This document shows positions 4,311 through 15,006 of a DNA stretch of 22,991 bases, piece by piece. The stretch lies in the IMG/VR virus record IMGVR_UViG_3300027704_000171, positions 1-22,991 of that record; one strand, written 5' to 3'. This DNA comes from a virus. The notes under the pieces were generated by a model. That model worked only from the letters and a program-made list of their open reading frames with translations, ran no database searches and was not told the DNA's origin. Position numbers and translations under genes: made by a program. The stretch's first letter is position 1, and every line of letters starts with the position of its first letter.

Positions 4311-4387
4311 TGGTCGGAGTACGAGGATTCGAACCTCGGACCTCCTGCTCCCAAAGCAGGCGCACTACCAAGCTGTGCTATACTCCG
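4311..4387 (-). tRNA. tRNA-Pro (anticodon TGG), CCA encoded
   Basis: The minus strand folds into a complete cloverleaf. The acceptor stem is CGGAGTA with TACTCCG, the anticodon stem CCTGC with GCAGG around the loop TTTGGGA (anticodon TGG), and the T-arm contains GGTTCGAATCC. The discriminator is A, and CCA is encoded. It is the last of three tRNA-type genes in a row on this strand. Confidence 0.95.
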
Positions 4388-4392
4388 TTAAT

Positions 4393-4467
4393 TGGCATAG
4401 GTGTACGGACTCGAACCGCAACTTTAGGATTTGGAATCCCATGTGCTACCATTAACACTACACCCAT
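4393..4467 (-). tRNA. tRNA-Trp (anticodon CCA), CCA end encoded
   Basis: The acceptor stem is ATGGGTG with CACCTAT (one G-U pair), the anticodon stem TGGGA with TCCTA around the loop TTCCAAA (anticodon CCA, reading UGG), and the T-arm contains GGTTCGAGTCC. The discriminator is G, as in bacterial tRNA-Trp, and CCA is encoded. Only 5 bases separate it from tRNA-Pro. Confidence 0.93.
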
Positions 4468-6505: not shown

Positions 6506-6513
6506 TATAAATA
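6506..6513 (+). promoter_or_regulatory. T4-type late promoter of the curli-like operon
   Basis: TATAAATA lies 25 bases before the first gene of the plus-strand block (start 6539). No other promoter-like element was found upstream of that block, and the following genes are closely packed or overlapping, so this element probably controls the whole run to 14064. Confidence 0.8.
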
Positions 6514-6538: not shown

Positions 6539-6817
6539 ATGGAGTTTGTACAACTGGTTGCTGATGTTGGCTTCCCGATAGCATCCGCTTTAGCCGGCGG
6601 ATTTTTCGTGTTCCTGACTCTTCGGTTTATTTTAGCTGGGGTGCTTGATTCTATAAAGGTTCAGCGCTCCTTCGCGATTGCTTTAGACAACCGCGTTAAG
6701 ACTATGAACAATGAATTGATTAGGATTGATGTGATGATGTCTGTTGCTTTAGGATTGAAACCTGACTTGGATAGAGTGGCGAGAGCCGATGGTCAAAAGG
6801 ATGCAAGGAAAGATTAG
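6539..6817 (+). CDS. Small single-span membrane protein, holin-like topology
   Basis: A 92-residue protein. An N-terminal membrane span (about residues 10-35, FPIASALAGGFFVFLTLRFI) is followed by a helix of coiled-coil character (ALDNRVKTMNNELIRIDVMM) and a charged tail. The shape resembles small holin-like proteins of the BhlA/UviB type, but these are weak sequence families. A clear partial copy lies at 7047-7340 (same GFPI span, same D-R-xM-N-LIR motif). The start has AAGGAG 7 bases upstream and a late promoter. A role in membrane permeabilisation or in assembling the export system is inference. Confidence 0.8.
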   Translation: MEFVQLVADVGFPIASALAGGFFVFLTLRFILAGVLDSIKVQRSFAIALDNRVKTMNNELIRIDVMMSVALGLKPDLDRVARADGQKDARKD

Positions 6818-6819
6818 TA

Positions 6820-7047
6820 ATGCTTTGGAAGAATATCATGATGCTTACGTTTAAAGGTAAAGAATTAGATGGCGCGACAGTAGATGAAAATGATCATCGA
6901 AATGTCGGCGGTTTTAGAATTGTAACTGAAGAAACACCGGACAATAAGTTCTTTGTCATTGACGATGTAGATTTAAACATTGGTGACATATACAGAATAA
7001 GTCCTACAGGTTTCTTTGAACTAATAGAAAAAGGACCAGCGCTTTAA
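6820..7047 (+). CDS. Small phage protein of unknown function
   Basis: A 75-residue soluble protein, mainly beta in character (MLTFKGKELDGATVDENDHR, then GGFRIVTEE and FFVIDDVDLNIGDIYRI). Starts at 6820 and at the tandem ATGs from 6838 are possible; GGAAG lies 6 bases before 6838. Its stop overlaps the next start as TAATG. It sits between two related membrane proteins. No domain recognised. Confidence 0.65.
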   Translation: MLWKNIMMLTFKGKELDGATVDENDHRNVGGFRIVTEETPDNKFFVIDDVDLNIGDIYRISPTGFFELIEKGPAL

Positions 7048-7340
7048 TGGATATAGCAGAGGCCATCGGCCAATATGGGTTTCCTATAATAGCGGCGCTT
7101 GGCCTCGGCTACTTTATATACTACATTTGGCAATGGGTGACTGAAGAAGTCGATCCTGTTGTTAATGAATCTCATACGACTTTAATAGGTCTTATTGACA
7201 GGGTACGTATGCTAGACAATGATCTCATACGACTTAAGACGAAACTAGATATGGTAATTTCAACAGGATCGGAGAAAAATGACAATGAAGACAAAGATAG
7301 CAGTATTGATGATCCTTCTGATAGTTCCGACTATAAGTAA
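7047..7340 (+). CDS. Small single-span membrane protein, relative of the 6539 product
   Basis: A 97-residue protein: N-terminal span (GFPIIAALGLGYFIYYIWQW, about 11-30), then a helical stretch with LIDRVRMLDNDLIRLKTKLD and a very acidic, disordered tail. The layout and the motifs GFPI and D-R-V-R-M-x-NDLIRL match the gene at 6539, so the two are probably duplicates. I recall similar proteins in marine phages, without known function. The tail-coding region overlaps the start of the CsgF-like gene by 62 bases, which includes that gene's signal peptide. Holin-like or export-accessory roles are both possible. Confidence 0.8.
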   Translation: MDIAEAIGQYGFPIIAALGLGYFIYYIWQWVTEEVDPVVNESHTTLIGLIDRVRMLDNDLIRLKTKLDMVISTGSEKNDNEDKDSSIDDPSDSSDYK

Positions 7341-7743
7341 TGCAGATTTAGGATGGGGATTTAAGAGTCCGGCGTTTAATGGCAATGGATACAGTACTCA
7401 CGTATTGACCACTGAGCAACTGCAACATAATCGTAAAGAAGATCAAAAGGATGCAGCTGATGCAGAAGCTAGGCGTATCGCAAGAGAATTAGAAAATACC
7501 ACACTCAATAAGTTTGTCAAAAACCTTGAGTCTAGAATTTATGCCACATTAAGTAAGCAAATGGTTGACAACATGTTCGCCGCTTGTGGTGATAGCTGCG
7601 CAAGTAGTGGTACCACTGAAATAGAAGGCAGCACGATATACTGGTCGAAAGATGCAACCACGGGTGAGATAACTTTAACTATAACTAACGACGATGGTAC
7701 AACTACTATTACGATACCTGGAGCCGGAGACTTTACATTCTAA
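7279..7743 (+). CDS. csgF: CsgF-like curli assembly factor
   Basis: A 154-residue secreted protein. The signal peptide is residues 1 to about 22 (hydrophobic AVLMILLIVPTI, SNA before the cut). The mature start DLGWGFKSPAFNGNG corresponds to the CsgF head FxxPxFxGN, which in E. coli plugs into the CsgG channel. Then come a helix (LNKFVKNLESRIYATL, 76-91) and a C-terminal beta region (GEITLTITNDDGTTTITIPG), the same order as E. coli CsgF (about 138 residues). An insertion with two cysteines (C103, C107) precedes the beta part. CsgF couples the CsgG pore to fibre nucleation at the cell surface. The next gene is CsgG, coupled as TAATG, which strongly supports the call. Confidence 0.85.
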   Translation: MTMKTKIAVLMILLIVPTISNADLGWGFKSPAFNGNGYSTHVLTTEQLQHNRKEDQKDAADAEARRIARELENTTLNKFVKNLESRIYATLSKQMVDNMFAACGDSCASSGTTEIEGSTIYWSKDATTGEITLTITNDDGTTTITIPGAGDFTF

Positions 7744-8546
7744 TGAAACTAATTGCAGCAACATTATGTGTAGCCCTTGCTGGTTGCGCTCAAATGGGTA
7801 ACGAGATATATCCCACCGAAGAACCTAAAGTTCAGATATCACCTTTAGGTAATGGATTAAAACAATTTCATGAACTAGATGGCAAAATAATGACTATTGC
7901 CGTCTATAGTTTTACAGATAAGACAGGACAACGTAAACCTAGTGATGCTGCTTCTAGTTTAAGTAGTGCAGTTACACAAGGTGGAGAAGTTTGGGTTATT
8001 AAAGCATTGCAAGATGTTGGTAACTCTACATGGTTTGAAGTAGTGGAAAGAGTTGGCCTTGACAATTTGGTTAAGGAACGTCAGCTTGTTCGTAATACAA
8101 GGGAAGTATACGAGAAATCATTAAAGAATGGCCCAACACCTCTAAAGCCTATGGTATTTGCCGGCTTGATTTTAGAAGGAGGAATTGTTGGTTATGATTC
8201 TAATGTTGCCATGGGTGGAACAGGTGCAAGATATTTAGGCATTGGTTTAACGACGGAATACAGAACGGATACAGTGACAATAGTTATGCGATTAGTAAGT
8301 GTCTCCACGGGTAAAGTATTACTTAGTGTGGCTACGGAAAAAAGTATAGCCAGTCACCGCAGCGGCGCGGACGTATTTAGGTTCTTCGATATGGGCACAA
8401 AGTTAGTTGAAGCCGAAACTGGTTATAGTGTGAATGAACCAGTAAATTATGCAGTAAGAGCAGCAGTGGAAGCTGGCGTAATTGAGTTGATCAATGAAGG
8501 AGAAAGAAAGAAATTCTGGAAGTTTATTAAACCTTCCGGAGGTTAA
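7743..8546 (+). CDS. csgG: CsgG-like outer-membrane curli export pore (lipoprotein)
   Basis: A 267-residue protein close to the E. coli CsgG length (277). Lipobox LAGC puts the lipidated cysteine at residue 15; the next residues are Ala-Gln, not Asp, fitting the outer membrane. Family blocks are complete: SFTDKTGQRKPSD (56-68), SSAVTQGGEVWVIKALQD, WFEVVERVGLDNLVKERQ (97-114), ILEGGIVGYDSN (143-154), GGTGARYLGIG (158-168), VFRFFDMG (211-218), NEPVNYAVRAA. In E. coli, nine CsgG subunits form an ungated channel for unfolded curlin. By alignment, constriction residues N55 and F56 of E. coli correspond to Ser72 and Leu73 here. Followed by curlin-like genes, the natural cargo. Confidence 0.95.
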   Translation: MKLIAATLCVALAGCAQMGNEIYPTEEPKVQISPLGNGLKQFHELDGKIMTIAVYSFTDKTGQRKPSDAASSLSSAVTQGGEVWVIKALQDVGNSTWFEVVERVGLDNLVKERQLVRNTREVYEKSLKNGPTPLKPMVFAGLILEGGIVGYDSNVAMGGTGARYLGIGLTTEYRTDTVTIVMRLVSVSTGKVLLSVATEKSIASHRSGADVFRFFDMGTKLVEAETGYSVNEPVNYAVRAAVEAGVIELINEGERKKFWKFIKPSGG

Positions 8547-8560
8547 TAGGAACTAATTAA

Positions 8561-9262
8561 ATGAAAATATTTAAAAGACTGATACCCTTAGCTTGCGTGG
8601 GTTTAGTCGCTGCATCTATTGCAGCTGCTAATGATATTTACATTACTCAAGTCGGTGATACATTAGACTTGGACATTGTCCAAAATGGACAAAACAACGT
8701 GATCGGTACAACCGGACAAGCTGTTGTACTAAATGGTGATGCAATGACCTTTAGCATAACTCAAACAGGTGGCTCAAACTCAATTGCGGCAAATATAAAA
8801 GGCGTAAGTTACACGGGCACGTGGGTATTTACAGGTAGTAATAACTCGGTAGCCTTATTGTGTAGTAGCGCATCAGCTGCAAACTGCGATACAGTAGTAC
8901 TCAACATTACTGCAGTAGGCGATGACCAAGCATACGATATTAAAATCGGTGAAAGCGCTAGCGCAGATCAAGCAACAATTAACTTTACTGTAACAGATGA
9001 CAATAACATTATTACTACTGATGTTGATGGTACTAGTGCAGTGATCAACGTTACTATTAATAAAAACTCAAGTACAGCAGGTAATAGTACACTAGACATT
9101 GATTTAGCTGGCAACGGAGATATCAACGGACACACTATAACCTTTAACGCTCTTGGTCGTGGCCACGCTGTTGTACTTAACCAAAGTGGGATATATGATA
9201 ATGTTATCAACTTGTCGACTAATGGCGATAACCACGCTATTAATATTAATCAGTCAGACTAG
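8561..9262 (+). CDS. Curlin-repeat (CsgA/CsgB-like) secreted protein, smaller form
   Basis: A 233-residue protein with a signal peptide (MKIFKRLIPLACVGLVAASI, cut after AAA at about 23). The mature head is NDIYITQVGDTLDLDIVQNG, almost the same pattern as the second curlin-like protein at 10285. It carries degenerate curlin repeats rich in Asn, Gly, Thr, Ile and Val: VQNGQNNVIG, FSITQTGGSNSI, AVVLNQSG, NGDNHAININQSD. Such strand-turn-strand repeats form the amyloid core of CsgA and CsgB. The repeats are less regular than E. coli CsgA, so it may be a nucleator or minor subunit. AGGA lies 9 bases before the start, and the gene follows csgG. Confidence 0.85.
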   Translation: MKIFKRLIPLACVGLVAASIAAANDIYITQVGDTLDLDIVQNGQNNVIGTTGQAVVLNGDAMTFSITQTGGSNSIAANIKGVSYTGTWVFTGSNNSVALLCSSASAANCDTVVLNITAVGDDQAYDIKIGESASADQATINFTVTDDNNIITTDVDGTSAVINVTINKNSSTAGNSTLDIDLAGNGDINGHTITFNALGRGHAVVLNQSGIYDNVINLSTNGDNHAININQSD

Positions 9263-10343
9263 TCTTGCTAACATAGGTCGCATCGCCGCCGTAGATGGTA
9301 GTGGAGCGATTGAACGTGGTGTAGATGCTATTGACGCAGTAAAAGGTACGGGCATTGATTTGCTCGATACCGCTGTGACCGCAAATGCAACTATGCGCAT
9401 TGACTTCGTTGATGATACGCGAGTAGATATAACTGAACACTCACGATTAATAATCGATGATTTTGTATACGATCCTGCAACAGGAACTGGCTCATTAGGG
9501 CTCAAAGCAAGCCTGGGAACAATACGATATGCATCAGGCCAGATCGCTAAGAATAGCAGACAGAATGTAAAGATTAGAACTCCGTCAGCAACGATCGGTG
9601 TACGTGGAACTGATTTTATCATGGTAGTAAACGAAGCCGGTGGTTCTATGATTACACTGCTTCCTAGCTGCAATACTGATGGAATGTGTTATGTTGGTGA
9701 GATAACCGTCGAGACAGATGCTGGCTTTGTTATCATGAATCAAGCATTTCAAGCGACTATGGTTTCTCATAGTATGAACAAACCTTCAAACCCACTTGTA
9801 TTAGATCTCAGTGAAGATATGATTAACAGCCTTTTGATTCTTCGCAAGACTAGTCCATATGAGGAAGTAGAGAAACTCGAATTAATTAAACGACAAAAGG
9901 GTGCAGACTTTTTAGGCTTAGACTTTTTACAGTATGACGGATTAGATTATGAGATGCTCGTAGATTCTATTGAAAGTATATGGGTAACTGCTCTTGATGA
10001 GACTGATTATATGCTTCAAGATATGTTGTATGATATGCTAGACCAATTAAACCAACAACTGATGAAGCTATTTGCTGATGAACTTGCATTACAGAATGCA
10101 TTCCTATTAAGACAAGAAGGAAAGATCTACGGATTCGATCCTGACAGTGGTATTACGTTAAAGGATTCAAACGGATCCTGGACATTTATCAGAAGAGATT
10201 ATGATGAAGGCGGTTACGTTGAATTAATATTAAACAATGCCTATGGTTATTCCATAGACTTACAACAGGGAGGCTGGGAATTATATGACTATAGATTGGG
10301 CGATACTATCGTTAATAATATTAGGATTATTCAGTCCCAGTAA
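9201..10343 (+). CDS. Secreted FecR-domain protein
   Basis: A 380-residue protein if started at ATG 9201. This start gives a normal signal peptide with an Arg before the hydrophobic core (LMAITTLLILISQTSLA); an ATG at 9222 gives a shorter one. The mature N-terminal half (about 24-180) has the FecR-domain pattern: start VDGSGAIERG, strand MRIDFVDDTRVDITEHSRL, LGTIRYASGQ, and the hallmark TPSATIGVRGTDF. The C-terminal half is acidic and helical, ending in a beta-rich GYVELILNNAYGYSIDLQQG. FecR domains in other bacteria are often encoded beside CHASE2 cyclases, as here, but this protein has no membrane anchor of its own and no sigma factor neighbour. The gene overlaps both flanking genes by about 60 bases. 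Confidence 0.85.
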   Translation: MLSTCRLMAITTLLILISQTSLANIGRIAAVDGSGAIERGVDAIDAVKGTGIDLLDTAVTANATMRIDFVDDTRVDITEHSRLIIDDFVYDPATGTGSLGLKASLGTIRYASGQIAKNSRQNVKIRTPSATIGVRGTDFIMVVNEAGGSMITLLPSCNTDGMCYVGEITVETDAGFVIMNQAFQATMVSHSMNKPSNPLVLDLSEDMINSLLILRKTSPYEEVEKLELIKRQKGADFLGLDFLQYDGLDYEMLVDSIESIWVTALDETDYMLQDMLYDMLDQLNQQLMKLFADELALQNAFLLRQEGKIYGFDPDSGITLKDSNGSWTFIRRDYDEGGYVELILNNAYGYSIDLQQGGWELYDYRLGDTIVNNIRIIQSQ

Positions 10344-11460
10344 GACTGAGGCCAATGATATTCGGGTTGCGCAGATTGGAGACAACATTATATTAAACGT
10401 TACACAGGATGGTAAGGATAATAAAATAACCGGTAAAAATTGGGGTAACTCTAATGCCTACATGAATGGTAGCAACTCAGTTGTGAACTACAGCCAAACC
10501 GGTGATAATAACAGACTAGGTATATACACATATGGCAATAATACAGTTATGAGCCTGACACAAACTGGCAATAACAACACCTCGAGTATGGATGGCCATG
10601 GCTCAAACCTTATAATGTCTGTCACGCAGAACGGCAATAACAACACTTCATATTCCGAGATGGGTAATGGTGGAGATGATAATAACTCTATGACGGTTAC
10701 ACAAGATGGTAATAACAACTACACTAATCCGAATATAAACGGTGACAATAATCTTATTGTTATAGATCAGGATGGTAATAACCATTATGCAACTAGAGTT
10801 GGCACATGGTCTGGTGATAATAACTCAATAGCTATTACTCAGAATGGATCACAACATGAGAATGCTCAGCTTGGTATGAATGGAAATAGTAATACGGTGG
10901 ATATATCGCAGGGCTTTAGTGGCGAGAGTAACCTTACTAGATCAATTATAGTAGGCGATAGTAACGCATTAACAGTATGGCAAGGTAAGCGATTTAGCGG
11001 ATACACTGATACGACTGAAGGTGGTGACCACGAAGCGAATTGGACAATAACTGGCAATAATAATTTGGCACGTAGCTATCAAACAGATGATGCAACTAAC
11101 TGTTGTGCATCGGCTCATCTCACTACAAACACTATAGAGGGTGATGGCAATAGTGTTACGGTAAGACAACGTGTTAGTGAAAATGAAGGTTTTGTGCAGG
11201 TTGTTGGAGATAGTAACTTTGTTGACTTATATCAAAGTGGCGGCGGTAATGCATATGGAAATATCACGGCCACCGGCAATAACCATTCTACGACGAATAT
11301 ACAAAAGGGCGGAGGAGTTCATAGCATAACACTAAATATGACTAATGGAGGCGGAGCTTATAATATCAACACTCTTCAGGACAGTACTAGCAATCAAAGC
11401 TATACATTGGAAGGTACGTGTTTTACAGGAACCTGTGGAATATCGGTAGTCCAGAATTAA
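10285..11460 (+). CDS. Large curlin-repeat (CsgA-like) secreted protein, likely main amyloid subunit
   Basis: A 391-residue protein with a signal peptide (MTIDWAILSLIILGLFSPSK, cut after TEA, about 23). The mature head NDIRVAQIGDNIILNVTQDG matches that of the 8561 product. At least ten repeats of about 20-25 residues follow, with the core S/T-x-x-QxGxxN: NYSQTGDNN, SLTQTGNNN, SVTQNGNNN, TVTQDGNNN, VIDQDGNN, AITQNGS, then more degenerate ones. Q and N ladders of this kind are the amyloid-forming unit of curlins. E. coli CsgA has 5 repeats in about 151 residues, so this is much longer. Four cysteines near the repeats' end (two as CC) are unusual for curlin. It would be exported through the CsgG-like pore. 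Confidence 0.9.
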   Translation: MTIDWAILSLIILGLFSPSKTEANDIRVAQIGDNIILNVTQDGKDNKITGKNWGNSNAYMNGSNSVVNYSQTGDNNRLGIYTYGNNTVMSLTQTGNNNTSSMDGHGSNLIMSVTQNGNNNTSYSEMGNGGDDNNSMTVTQDGNNNYTNPNINGDNNLIVIDQDGNNHYATRVGTWSGDNNSIAITQNGSQHENAQLGMNGNSNTVDISQGFSGESNLTRSIIVGDSNALTVWQGKRFSGYTDTTEGGDHEANWTITGNNNLARSYQTDDATNCCASAHLTTNTIEGDGNSVTVRQRVSENEGFVQVVGDSNFVDLYQSGGGNAYGNITATGNNHSTTNIQKGGGVHSITLNMTNGGGAYNINTLQDSTSNQSYTLEGTCFTGTCGISVVQN

Positions 11461-11469
11461 GGAAATGAA

Positions 11470-13521
11470 ATGAAATACTTGACACATTGGGCATTAGCCT
11501 TTGTTACTGCTGCAGCAGTATTACTATTCCACTATAACGACGGAACTGTTGTACAAACTTTACGGCTTAAACAATTCGACTTATTGCAAGAGTATGATAC
11601 ACCAGTAGTAAGCGAAGATATTGCTATTCTTACTATTGATGAGAAAGCAATAGAGAAGCATGGGCAATGGCCTTGGAAGCGTGATGTGCTTGCTAACGTC
11701 ATATGGCAACTGAGAGAGGCTGGTGCCGGAGTTATAGTACTACCAATTTTATTCAGTGAGTATGATCGACTTAACGGTGACCAAGAATTATTAGATGCCA
11801 TGATAGACAATTCAGTTGTTATAGCGCAAGTCGGTTCTTTCGATGCAGATAAGAATGGAGTCCCACGTGGAGTAGCAAAGATCGGGGATCCACTGCCGTT
11901 CTTATTCGAATGGGATGGAATGCTCGGGCCAATCAGTGAGTTCGGTGATAATGCCGGTGGTGTTGGAGTGCTCAATGTCGTACCTGAGATTGATGGAGTA
12001 GTTAGGCGTATACCCTTGCTCATGCGCGTAGGGGCCGATATCTATCCAGCGCTTACAATTGAAGTTATTCGTGTAGCCGTAGGTGATCCATCATATCAAG
12101 TAAAAAGTAGTGCTGGTGGCATCGATAAGATGAGAGTGCCTGGTTATCCTACAATACAAACCGACTTTAATGGTAGGATATGGCTGCGATGGAACAAAGT
12201 TTTTAGTCATACGAGCGTAGCGGATGATCATGCGTTTAGTGAATTATCAGGTAAGATTGTTATAATAGGAACAACGGCTGCTGGTTTAGGTGGAGTTATA
12301 GCATCTCCTAAAGGTGGTCAATATAATTATATGCCTGCTGCCGTATCGTTGCAATCAATTCTAGATGGTGATACGATCTCACGTCCATGGTGGGCTAGTA
12401 TGGTTGAGTTGATTCTCACTGGTATCCTTTGTTTTGGAATGGCATTGTGTACTATATCCTCACGATATTGGATCATCGGATCTAAGATTATAGGCTTTCC
12501 TATTTTATTAGGTGGTATCTCTTGGTACGCATGGTCAGAGTATTTGTATCTAATTGATGTAACTATGCCGATTATTGGTATTGTACTAGTAAGCTTACAT
12601 GGTGTCTTTTCTAGGTTTGTCAGAGAATACACAGAGAAACAAGCAATCAAGAAGCAGTTCGCTGGTTACGCTTCTCCTACGGTTGTACGTATGCTACAAG
12701 AGAATCCTGAACTAATCAAAGAGGGCATGAAGAAAGAAGTATCGATATGCTTCTCAGATTTGCGTGGATTTACTCCACTAGGCGAATCATTTGGTGATGA
12801 TGTGAAGGGTTTAACTAAGGTAATGAATGGTTACATGGATGCGATCACTCAGCCTATATTAGATTCGGATGGAATGGTTATTAAGTATATCGGTGATGCG
12901 TCTATGCATATACACAACGCACCGTTAGATGATCCTGACCATCCTAAAACAGCAGTACGTACTGCATTAAATATGATTAAACAAGTAGAGGTATTCAACA
13001 ATGGAACCACAATGGAGGGTAAACCGCCTATTGGTATGGGGGCTGGCGTTAATACTGGCCTCGGCTATATTGGGGAAATGGGATCATCGGCACGTCATTC
13101 CTACGATATCTTGGGGGACGCTGTATCAACAGCAGCAAGATTAGAATCGGCATGTAAAGGATACGGTGTAGTGTTAATCGTAGGACCTTCAACATACGAA
13201 GTTACAAAAGATGATTTCTTTTACTTAAAGCTGGATAACCTTGCCGTAAAAGGAAAGACGGTTGGTTTAGAAATCTATACGGCTATAGATACACCACACC
13301 CACCGGTGTTTAAAAGTAGCAAAAGATTACACGATGAGATGCATAGGCATTATAGTAACCAAGACTTTAAAGAAGCAATTAGACATTGCAATCTTTTAAA
13401 GGTTAGTTTCTATGGTCAGATGCTTGGTTATTATGAAATGTGGATTGAGAGATGTGAATACATGATGACTCAAGATCTGCCCGCTGATTGGGATGGGATA
13501 TTTAGAGCTACAACTAAATGA
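11470..13521 (+). CDS. CHASE2-domain class III adenylate/guanylate cyclase
   Basis: A 683-residue membrane protein. The N-terminal span (about 7-20) is followed by a CHASE2 sensor outside the cytoplasm (about 35-300; VSEDIAILTIDEKAI and GKIVIIGTTA are typical). Three spans (about 312-330, 338-356, 361-380) follow, then a class III cyclase domain (about 420-605) and a C-terminal helical tail ending in DWDGIF. In the catalytic domain both metal-binding Asp are present (D430 in FSDLRGF, D476 in KYIGD), with K472 and D546 at purine-recognition positions, favouring ATP. Arg557 (AARLE) is kept, but the usual transition-state Asn is Ser553 (GDAVSTAARLE). The neighbouring FecR protein is the likely periplasmic partner. 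AAGGA lies 6 bases before the start. Confidence 0.92.
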   Translation: MKYLTHWALAFVTAAAVLLFHYNDGTVVQTLRLKQFDLLQEYDTPVVSEDIAILTIDEKAIEKHGQWPWKRDVLANVIWQLREAGAGVIVLPILFSEYDRLNGDQELLDAMIDNSVVIAQVGSFDADKNGVPRGVAKIGDPLPFLFEWDGMLGPISEFGDNAGGVGVLNVVPEIDGVVRRIPLLMRVGADIYPALTIEVIRVAVGDPSYQVKSSAGGIDKMRVPGYPTIQTDFNGRIWLRWNKVFSHTSVADDHAFSELSGKIVIIGTTAAGLGGVIASPKGGQYNYMPAAVSLQSILDGDTISRPWWASMVELILTGILCFGMALCTISSRYWIIGSKIIGFPILLGGISWYAWSEYLYLIDVTMPIIGIVLVSLHGVFSRFVREYTEKQAIKKQFAGYASPTVVRMLQENPELIKEGMKKEVSICFSDLRGFTPLGESFGDDVKGLTKVMNGYMDAITQPILDSDGMVIKYIGDASMHIHNAPLDDPDHPKTAVRTALNMIKQVEVFNNGTTMEGKPPIGMGAGVNTGLGYIGEMGSSARHSYDILGDAVSTAARLESACKGYGVVLIVGPSTYEVTKDDFFYLKLDNLAVKGKTVGLEIYTAIDTPHPPVFKSSKRLHDEMHRHYSNQDFKEAIRHCNLLKVSFYGQMLGYYEMWIERCEYMMTQDLPADWDGIFRATTK

Positions 13522-13670
13522 TAATTATTCTTCACAAAGGGTTTACTTTAAAACCCATAGTGAAGAAGACTCCTGTCAGACTAATCGGAGGTCAACCTAA
13601 TCCCGAATGGGAACCTAGGATATCACCGAAACCCTATGTAAAGGAAAGTAATAATGGCAAAAGTAACTGA
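13518..13670 (+). CDS. Small proline-rich protein of unknown function
   Basis: A 50-residue reading frame starting on the ATGA that ends the cyclase gene and running 17 bases into the next gene. It is basic and proline rich (GQPNPEWEPRISPKPYVK) with a short hydrophobic start (MIIILHKGFTLKP). No family recognised. The coupled start and tight fit between genes support expression; the composition alone does not. Confidence 0.5.
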   Translation: MIIILHKGFTLKPIVKKTPVRLIGGQPNPEWEPRISPKPYVKESNNGKSN

Positions 13671-14064
13671 AGGAGCTGCCTTAAAAGGACAGCAAAAAAG
13701 GTTATCTAAAAATTCTAGATATGCACATTTAGATATAGATGGCGATGGAATTGTAAGTGATGAGGAAATGATGAGTGAACAAAGAATGCTTGAATTAGAA
13801 GATATGCGCACTGATATGGAGAATGAAGATAAGAAGCAGGACGCTCAGCGTAACATGACGTGGTTTGCACTAGCAGGCTTATTGTTATATCCTGTTATGA
13901 TTATTCTTTGTAACGTTAGTGGCCAATCAGTTGCTGCAGATAATCTAACTACTATTGCGCCTACATATTGTATCGCAGTTGTTGGTATAGTTGCTGCTTT
14001 CTTTGGTGCACAAGCATACAAAGGAAAGGCTGCTGTTAAAGCTAAGAAAAAAGAAGAGTGGTAA
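13654..14064 (+). CDS. EF-hand membrane protein
   Basis: A 136-residue protein with one canonical EF-hand loop at residues 27-38 (DIDGDGIVSDEE; ligands D27, D29, D31, E38). A charged, Met-rich helix comes next, then two membrane spans (about 69-87 and 104-122), and the end is lysine rich (KAAVKAKKKEEW). I recall small EF-hand plus membrane-span proteins in other marine T4-like phages, where the role is unknown. Here it is the last gene of the late operon, and AAAGGA precedes its start. A calcium-dependent role in fibre export, lysis or virion structure is possible but unproven. The strong hairpin at 14075 follows directly. Confidence 0.85.
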   Translation: MAKVTEGAALKGQQKRLSKNSRYAHLDIDGDGIVSDEEMMSEQRMLELEDMRTDMENEDKKQDAQRNMTWFALAGLLLYPVMIILCNVSGQSVAADNLTTIAPTYCIAVVGIVAAFFGAQAYKGKAAVKAKKKEEW

Positions 14065-14074
14065 ATACTAAAAT

Positions 14075-14100
14075 GCCGGGTGTACTTTTGTACACCCGGC
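14075..14100. terminator. Hairpin between convergent operons, probably bidirectional terminator
   Basis: A perfect 11-base stem (GCCGGGTGTAC with GTACACCCGGC) with loop TTTT. It lies 10 bases after the stop of the last late-operon gene and 28 bases before the stop of the converging endolysin gene. Both flanks are T-rich but without a long T run, so it may end transcription from both sides. Confidence 0.75.
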
Positions 14101-14127
14101 TATCCATTGTTTATTTAAAGAAACACT

Positions 14128-15006
14128 TTAGCCTAATAGCTTCTCTAAAGTAGCTGGTCCGGCGATACCATCAGCAACAAGTCCATTGTCTTCTTGCCAG
14201 GTTTTAAGTGCCATTTCGGTGCCACGTCCAAAGATTCCATCAGGCGATGCTCCGAGGCCTAAAGCTTCTTGCATCATCTTGACGCCTTGACCACGAGATC
14301 CTCGACGTAAGACTGAGTTATGTTTAATCTCAAACTCATCATCTTCATCTATCATCCGATGGTCACGACCAACATCTTCTCCTAGTACTGACATAGCATT
14401 AACATAACGCTTTTGGCGATCTTCAAGACCGATTGCGCCACCATTAATCTTGCGTGTCATCATCCGCACGTCACCGGTATCAGCAATTTCGTTCAACATG
14501 TTTATGCTCCAGAACCAACATGCAGACTCAATTGCACCTGATGGTGTTGAAACATATTCTGCAGCTTCTTCGGCACTCATGTTAACACTACTACCAAATC
14601 GGGTATAGTTATCCCTACCAGTAAGTTGCTTAAGGCCACGACCACGGAAACGCCATCCGTCACCCTCTTGAGTATTGCCCATCTTGTACCTACGGAATTC
14701 ATCGTTGTACACACGATTCGCAATCATCTCAGGGTTACGTGCATACTCAGCAGCGTTTGCTTTAGGCGCATCACCAAAATACCTACCAAAGACTGCACCT
14801 AAAGCTTTCTCGCTATAGTTCAGGTTCTCGGTAAGAGATCTAAAGTTATTAGACTCATGTGCACACTGACTGATAAAATGAGCAACACGGCTCTTTGTAT
14901 TGATTTCATACACGGGCAGCTTGGCAATTATAGCCTCATGCCATCGCTCAACGGTGTCTCGATCATTACCTGGGATCATATCGTTAAGTTGTTTTGCAGT
15001 TAACAT
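14128..15006 (-). CDS. GH19-type endolysin with peptidoglycan-binding domain
   Basis: A 292-residue enzyme without signal peptide. The N-terminal domain (about 1-215) has the GH19 (chitinase/lysozyme-like) pattern. The catalytic Glu is E51 in ISQCAHESNNF, with a probable second acid E60 in LTENLNYS. YNDEFRRY and the substrate-cleft motif RFRGRGLKQLTGRDNY (119-134) follow. The C-terminus (about 235-292) is a PG_binding_1 domain (LRRGSRGQGVKMMQEAL, PDGIFGRGT, LVADGIAGPAT). It cleaves cell-wall glycan at the end of infection and needs a holin to reach it; the small membrane proteins at 6539 and 7047 are candidates. AAAGGA precedes the start. It is transcribed with the minus-strand block, unlike the late operon it faces. 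Confidence 0.92.
   Translation of the reverse strand: MLTAKQLNDMIPGNDRDTVERWHEAIIAKLPVYEINTKSRVAHFISQCAHESNNFRSLTENLNYSEKALGAVFGRYFGDAPKANAAEYARNPEMIANRVYNDEFRRYKMGNTQEGDGWRFRGRGLKQLTGRDNYTRFGSSVNMSAEEAAEYVSTPSGAIESACWFWSINMLNEIADTGDVRMMTRKINGGAIGLEDRQKRYVNAMSVLGEDVGRDHRMIDEDDEFEIKHNSVLRRGSRGQGVKMMQEALGLGASPDGIFGRGTEMALKTWQEDNGLVADGIAGPATLEKLLG

Follow-up and report, generated by a model that had tools for sequence, protein, structure and literature searches.

The window analysed here is the whole 22,991-nt IMG/VR virus record IMGVR_UViG_3300027704_000171, with position 1 as its first letter. On its plus strand, at 11470..13521, we found a gene for a 683-aa CHASE2/class III nucleotidyl cyclase, which matches phrog_35576 over its full length (E 2e-198) and closes a curli module. 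The CHASE2 sensor domain spans residues 14-320 (11509..12429, plus strand; Pfam 140.9 bits, cut-off 26.3) and the Guanylate_cyc domain residues 421-597 (61.4 bits, cut-off 21.9); both score well above their Pfam cut-offs, so the make-up given in the original prediction, CHASE2 plus a class III cyclase, holds. In an AlphaFold2 model of the protein (mean pLDDT 88), membrane-type helices were placed at residues 8-23, 309-330, 333-358 and 365-397. The CHASE2 domain and these helices precede the catalytic domain, as in a CHASE2 sensor cyclase. The PDB folds that best matched the catalytic part were the class III catalytic domains 3r5g, 2w01 and 1wc1 (TMt 0.85-0.89). From this model, a monomer of a class whose active site forms only in the dimer, the cyclase fold is predicted to be intact. 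The Guanylate_cyc score, the metal Asps, the base Lys, the transition-state Arg and the fold all assign the protein to class III, and the Asn of the class motif GDxVNxAAR is replaced by Ser553. This Asn is usual but not strictly defining for class III, as the cyclase Ma1120 is active with Ala according to passages of PMC4215837. Other genes of the window match phage families (T4-like), among them a ClpP-like protease, PhoH and exonucleases, and genes for tRNA-Pro(TGG) and tRNA-Trp(CCA) lie on the minus strand at 4311-4467.

The module upstream of the cyclase lies entirely on the plus strand. It opens with a pair of small membrane-type proteins from the same PHROG family (phrog_18771), tm92 (92 aa; 6539..6817) and tm97 (97 aa; 7047..7340), neither of which has a Pfam match at E<=0.1; a 75-aa ORF at 6820-7047 sits between them and overlaps the start of tm97. 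A CsgF-like protein (7279..7743; Pfam CsgF 51.3 bits, cut-off 25.8) and the outer-membrane curli pore protein CsgG (7743..8546; 173.2 bits, cut-off 20.8) follow. The next gene, curl1 (8561..9262), has no Pfam curlin match and was assigned as the first curlin-like secreted repeat protein by its position and by homology to curlin-associated genes of the phages Melnitz and HTVC008M. Then come a FecR-domain protein with a signal-peptide-like N-terminus (9195..10343; Pfam FecR 36.6 bits, cut-off 24), which starts at the ATG at 9195 within a listed TTG ORF of 9153-10343, and the second curlin-repeat protein, curl2 (10285..11460; Pfam Curlin_rpt 46.9 bits over three stretches, cut-off 20.7). From CsgF through the cyclase, neighbouring genes overlap or are separated by gaps of at most 14 nt. 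The FecR neighbour and the exported fibre that had been proposed from the letters alone thus have their counterparts in Pfam FecR, CsgG, CsgF and Curlin_rpt matches beside the cyclase, and its place at the end of a csgF-csgG-curlin-FecR-curlin series makes it the cyclase of a phage curli (T8SS) module.

This arrangement is shared widely. Upstream sequence of 7.5 kb or more was available for 57 viral loci, and in 56 of them csgF, csgG, curl1 and fecR lie upstream on the same strand; in the exception, L016, the block is inverted. These 57 loci and the full set of 64 hold some duplicate contigs (e.g. L018 = L214, L019 = L160). In both L015 and L016 the csg-FecR-curlin genes run opposite to the adjoining cyclase, and the cyclase can therefore be uncoupled from the operon. 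Proteins of the tm92 and tm97 type are both present in 52 of the 57 viral loci with 7.5 kb upstream. The passages of PMC9599517 on the pelagiphage module give the label 'histidine kinases' to one or two proteins in this place; compared by position, and with no Pfam match at E<=0.1 for the proteins of the window, that label looks doubtful.

At 6506..6513 on the plus strand, 25 nt before the first module gene, stands the word TATAAATA, which we take to be the T4 late promoter consensus. The word was found near the first module gene in 25 of 64 viral modules, against 0.027 expected for each, with the exact word absent in the other 39; across the entire window it showed no enrichment (5 occurrences against 2.69 expected). 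Melnitz carries an annotated late-transcription coactivator. Expression late in infection, which had been suggested at the outset, is plausible in the light of this word and its enrichment at the same place in relatives.

The Ser-type active site

All the residues singled out in the original prediction (D430, K472, D476, D546, R557 and Ser553) are found where it placed them. Since it had also asked whether Ser recurs at site 553 in relatives, we aligned the window with 64 viral loci, drawn from at least 64 relatives and fetched from IMG/VR with peptides outside site 553; of the resulting 65 rows, 7 are too short for that site and 58 cover it. The first metal Asp, D430 (12757..12759, plus strand, as are all sites below), is present in 59 of 59 viral rows covering it, and the base-specifying K472 and the second metal Asp D476 (12883..12897) each in 58 of 58, as is the transition-state Arg, R557 (13138..13140). 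Ser553, in the context G549-D-A-V-S553-T-A-A-R557, does recur: D546 (13105..13107) goes with Ser553 in 43 of the 58 viral rows and Ser or Thr at 546 goes with Asn553 in 15, a ratio biased towards Ser through search peptides of which some are typical of the Ser type. The nearest published phages are split, with Melnitz being Ser-type and HTVC008M Asn-type.

We then compared alignment columns across 102 distinct Ser-type domains (including the window, Melnitz (L066) and L118, with 7 rows lacking the site set aside), 12 viral Asn-type domains and 79 bacterial ones. Five further residues are fixed or nearly so in the Ser type only. Ile471 occurs in 97 of 97 Ser-type domains, against Asp in 79 of 79 bacterial ones; Ser478 occurs in 95 of 98; and His480 and His482 (12907..12915) occur in 99 of 99, against Ala480 in 77 of 79 and Trp482 in 79 of 79 bacterial sequences. 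Thr554 is the fifth, the pair S553-T554 (13126..13131) standing where bacteria mostly have Asn-Leu. The invariance of residues 546, 553 and 554 (102/102) is partly by construction, as 66 of the 102 domains were retrieved with a DNA pattern in which these residues are wholly or almost wholly specified. In the 36 domains defined by Ser553 alone, residues 471, 478, 480, 482, 546, 553 and 554 are identical in all 36. The fixed changes I471, S478, H480, H482 and T554 could alter the substrate.

Among the bacterial CHASE2-cyclases in the matches listed, mainly from Alphaproteobacteria, Ser or Thr at 546 was combined with Asn553 in 79 of 79, and the same held for the 30 closest further bacterial catalytic domains, drawn from 120 genomes (30/30; at most 42% identical). 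We also scanned 754 genomes, in a search that had no Asn-type positive control, for the DNA pattern D-x-x-G-D-x-V-[S/T/C]-T-A; this gave 2 matches in 385 alphaproteobacterial genomes, neither of which encodes a cyclase, and 0 in 369 gammaproteobacterial genomes. A bacterial Ser-type example, and with it the ordinary bacterial relative with Ser that had been named as the case against an unusual enzyme, was thus found neither among the 79 CHASE2-cyclases (0/79) nor among the 30 further cyclases (0/30) nor among the pattern matches in the 754 genomes, and we rejected an origin of the Ser in bacterial CHASE2-cyclases. One more locus had entered the bacterial set as its 80th member: L118 (11511 nt), binned in a Pirellulales MAG, carries a phage-like FecR gene, a curlin gene, a Ser-type cyclase gene and genes for both small membrane-type proteins, and represents phage DNA that was binned as bacterial.

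The surroundings of the bacterial genes resemble the phage module in part. Of the 79 bacterial CHASE2-cyclases, 23 have a FecR ORF no more than 500 nt away, and FecR beside a CHASE2-cyclase is therefore in part a bacterial arrangement, found in a minority of loci. No csgF, csgG or curlin gene was detected near the 79 in BLASTP searches with phage queries, many of these loci being short; CsgG was found in 2 of 24 genomes holding CHASE2-cyclases, a count that says little.

Domain exchange and spread among viruses

In trees of the catalytic domain, the Ser type forms one side of a branch with SH-aLRT support of 99 (105 rows) or 100 (27 rows). Because of this single origin, the concerted change at these residues counts as one evolutionary event and is no evidence for repeated co-evolution. 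The sensor domains tell a different story. The window and HTVC008M (L042) are 58% identical in CHASE2 and 38% in the catalytic domain, whereas for the window and L023 the figures are 33% (CHASE2) and 86% (catalytic domain), with the jump in identity at about residues 392-396, the end of the last membrane helix. We examined this with AU tests on 27 chosen rows (14 Ser-type, 7 Asn-type viral and 6 bacterial, two long-branch bacterial rows being left out), in which the Ser group was named from residues and the CHASE2-like grouping was named after the CHASE2 identities had been seen. With CHASE2 data, holding the Ser-type rows together was rejected (lnL 154 lower, p-AU 8e-56); with catalytic data, the CHASE2-like grouping was rejected (lnL 141 lower, p-AU 9e-41). 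The trees and the identity profile thus point to a catalytic module of residues 385-605 (12622..13284, plus strand) that, judged from these sequences, is swapped in one piece among CHASE2 sensors of very different kinds. This exchange is judged to be old, because synonymous sites between the window and L023 are near saturation.

The exchanged domain is under strong purifying selection. Its dN/dS was 0.031-0.073 in five Ser-type pairs, and in four of these pairs the catalytic values of 0.063, 0.031, 0.066 and 0.073 compare with higher sensor values of 0.087, 0.115, 0.117 and 0.146, all of them rough figures with dS high in some pairs. Together with the recurrence of D546 and Ser553 in the viral rows, this selection led us to reject a broken or one-off gene. 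The best reading of the comparisons is that Ser553 is a stable alternative to Asn in what would be a re-tuned active site, and not a defect.

How unusual such a gene is in phages depends on the collection. The claim of rarity stands for a collection of phage records, in which 9 of 50,697 match the cyclase, and fails for IMG/VR, where we found the relatives described above and, with the Ser-type DNA pattern plus one Ala codon, more than 120 stretches among the matches listed. A class III cyclase was encoded in all 80 viral loci kept from that pattern scan. Two of the nine phage records, from GenBank and named 'Acinetobacter phage MD-2021a', look like bacterial contigs; the one we examined (L068) has mfd, isc and hsc genes around the cyclase and looks like a contig of a bacterial chromosome.

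Ser-type loci were also present on contigs of 245, 344, 357 and 364 kb. The T4 prohead protease family PF03420 was found on all four of these and in 0 of 14 control genomes, and the Ser type is therefore not confined to pelagiphages; four smaller records (128-141 kb) searched alongside them gave no PF03420 match. The ribonucleotide reductase subunit of the window is closest, within the phage collection, to those of 349-378 kb phages, a likeness that on its own is not enough to classify the window virus. Our literature search yielded no paper that treats both jumbo phages and curli or CsgG.

Putative signalling role and rival readings

Going by sequence and predicted structure, we think it reasonably likely that the gene encodes a functional class III cyclase of the inner membrane, with adenylyl cyclase as its most likely activity, and that this enzyme provides the signalling output of the phage curli module. 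The curli module would be made late; CsgG and CsgF would form an outer-membrane pore through which the curlin-repeat proteins pass; the CHASE2 domain in the periplasm would read the state of the envelope or the fibre, probably together with the FecR-domain protein encoded next to it; and the dimerised cytoplasmic domains would make a cyclic nucleotide, probably cAMP, that may act on a host receptor. An envelope-coupled sensor is made plausible, by inference, by S. meliloti, where CHASE2 cyclases are activated through the outer-membrane protein NsrA according to parts of PMC13001267. No cNMP_binding domain was found in 20 viral records (a control matched in 10 of 14 genomes), and the receptor, if the product is cAMP, would therefore be the host's; the literature we searched gave no cAMP receptor for SAR11.

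The choice of cAMP follows from the pair K472 and D546, which corresponds to the Lys-Asp pair described as conserved in adenylyl cyclases in passages of PMC4215837 and makes cAMP the probable product of the Ser type. The same passages give Ma1120 as an active enzyme with Lys, Asp, Ala for Asn, and Arg, in which the change A164N drastically lowers adenylyl cyclase activity and abolishes guanylyl cyclase activity. A residue other than Asn can thus be the working state.

A bolder form of the argument is rather unlikely in our view. It would have phages evolve a class III subtype of their own with a rebuilt active site (I471, S478, H480, H482, D546, S553, T554). Its product would be either some cyclic nucleotide different from cAMP or cAMP itself, controlled in a way not known from bacteria; as an exchangeable output cartridge it would move from sensor to sensor among marine and jumbo T4-like phages and report late in infection on the curli envelope. 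Also unlikely is that the Ser-type domain simply makes another product (cGMP, cCMP or cUMP), a signal that the cAMP receptors of the host would leave unread. This would fit the set of fixed, Ser-type-specific catalytic residues, the absence of a cNMP receptor from the 20 viral records, and a match to the PADLOC PycC models (best E 3.8e-15). However, the PycC models are class III domains, so such a match is expected for any class III cyclase; the base-reading residues of PycC (PMC11224242) differ by position relative to the metal Asps; and K472 with D546 is the adenylyl cyclase pair.

A role in lysis can also be considered. Directly downstream of the cyclase (13654-15006) lie genes for a 136-aa protein (13654-14064) and an adjoining endolysin (14128-15006); the small protein has hydrophobic segments, an EF-hand-like stretch, DIDGDGIVSDEE, and a weak holin-like Pfam match (17.0 bits, cut-off 28.4). 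In passages of PMC9004378, Buchholz et al. put forward that CsgGF of Melnitz serves as a pinholin or a gated secretin. That the module in its entirety serves to time lysis or to form a pore, with the cyclase tuning lysis and not fibre display, nevertheless seems distinctly unlikely to us, because the two curlin-like genes of the module, here and in most relatives, fit fibre export better than a bare pore.

The usually conserved catalytic Asn has been lost, and a 1997 title by Yan reportedly has Asn and Arg as essential in mammalian cyclase, which would suit a degenerate cyclase that binds nucleotide and serves as a regulator or scaffold. This we hold to be very unlikely, and the slower or binding-only enzyme of the original prediction is not supported either, given a single clade, metal-binding, base-specifying and Arg residues that do not vary in any viral row long enough to show them, a catalytic domain that evolves more slowly than its sensor (dN/dS 0.03-0.07), and the activity of Ma1120 without Asn in the cited passages of PMC4215837.

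Curli modules are widespread among phages of the sea. An active site that is fixed, phage-specific as far as searched, and moved between sensors shows the signalling output of these modules to be under selection. The Ser-type catalytic module is a soluble domain and as such directly assayable, and the Ser type offers a natural test of which change class III tolerates at the Asn position with the rest held.

Relation to known systems

The PycC pyrimidine cyclases of Pycsar have the class III domain in common with the window cyclase, which their PADLOC models match. We rejected an identity with PycC, as the pyrimidine-reading residues of BcPycC, EaPycC and AnPycC (Y50/D94/R97; F100/R142/Q144; F60/K104/F109; PMC11224242) differ, a comparison made by position relative to the metal Asps and with no superposition. 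Ma1120 of Mycobacterium avium shares, by residue role and with no alignment, the Lys-Asp pair, the Arg and a small residue for Asn, going by the same passages of PMC4215837, and differs in that its small residue is Ala, whereas the phage Ser type has Ser. The bacterial CHASE2 adenylyl cyclases, which by the literature include CyaD1, CyaD2 and CyaK of S. meliloti, share CHASE2 and class III domains and in some cases a FecR neighbour; they differ in having Ser or Thr at 546 with Asn at 553, no curli genes near the 79 loci, and catalytic domains at most 42% identical.

Closest of all is the T8SS (curli) module of pelagiphages, which includes FecR and adenylate cyclase genes. It is already described in PMC9599517, whose passages on it give the same gene set and order, and HTVC008M and Melnitz carry its relatives; parts of PMC7029224 and PMC9004378 also describe, in part, a pelagiphage-type curli module. 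The terms 'active site' and 'catalytic' have 0 occurrences in PMC9599517, whose passages on the module leave the active site of the cyclase untreated, and our literature search found no paper on a phage Ser-type cyclase subtype traded between sensors. Against the published module, what is new here is the Ser type, its occurrence on 245-364 kb contigs and the domain exchange. Set beside all of these systems, Ser553 is best taken as the hallmark of a catalytic subtype that is strictly conserved and, as far as searched, found only in phages.
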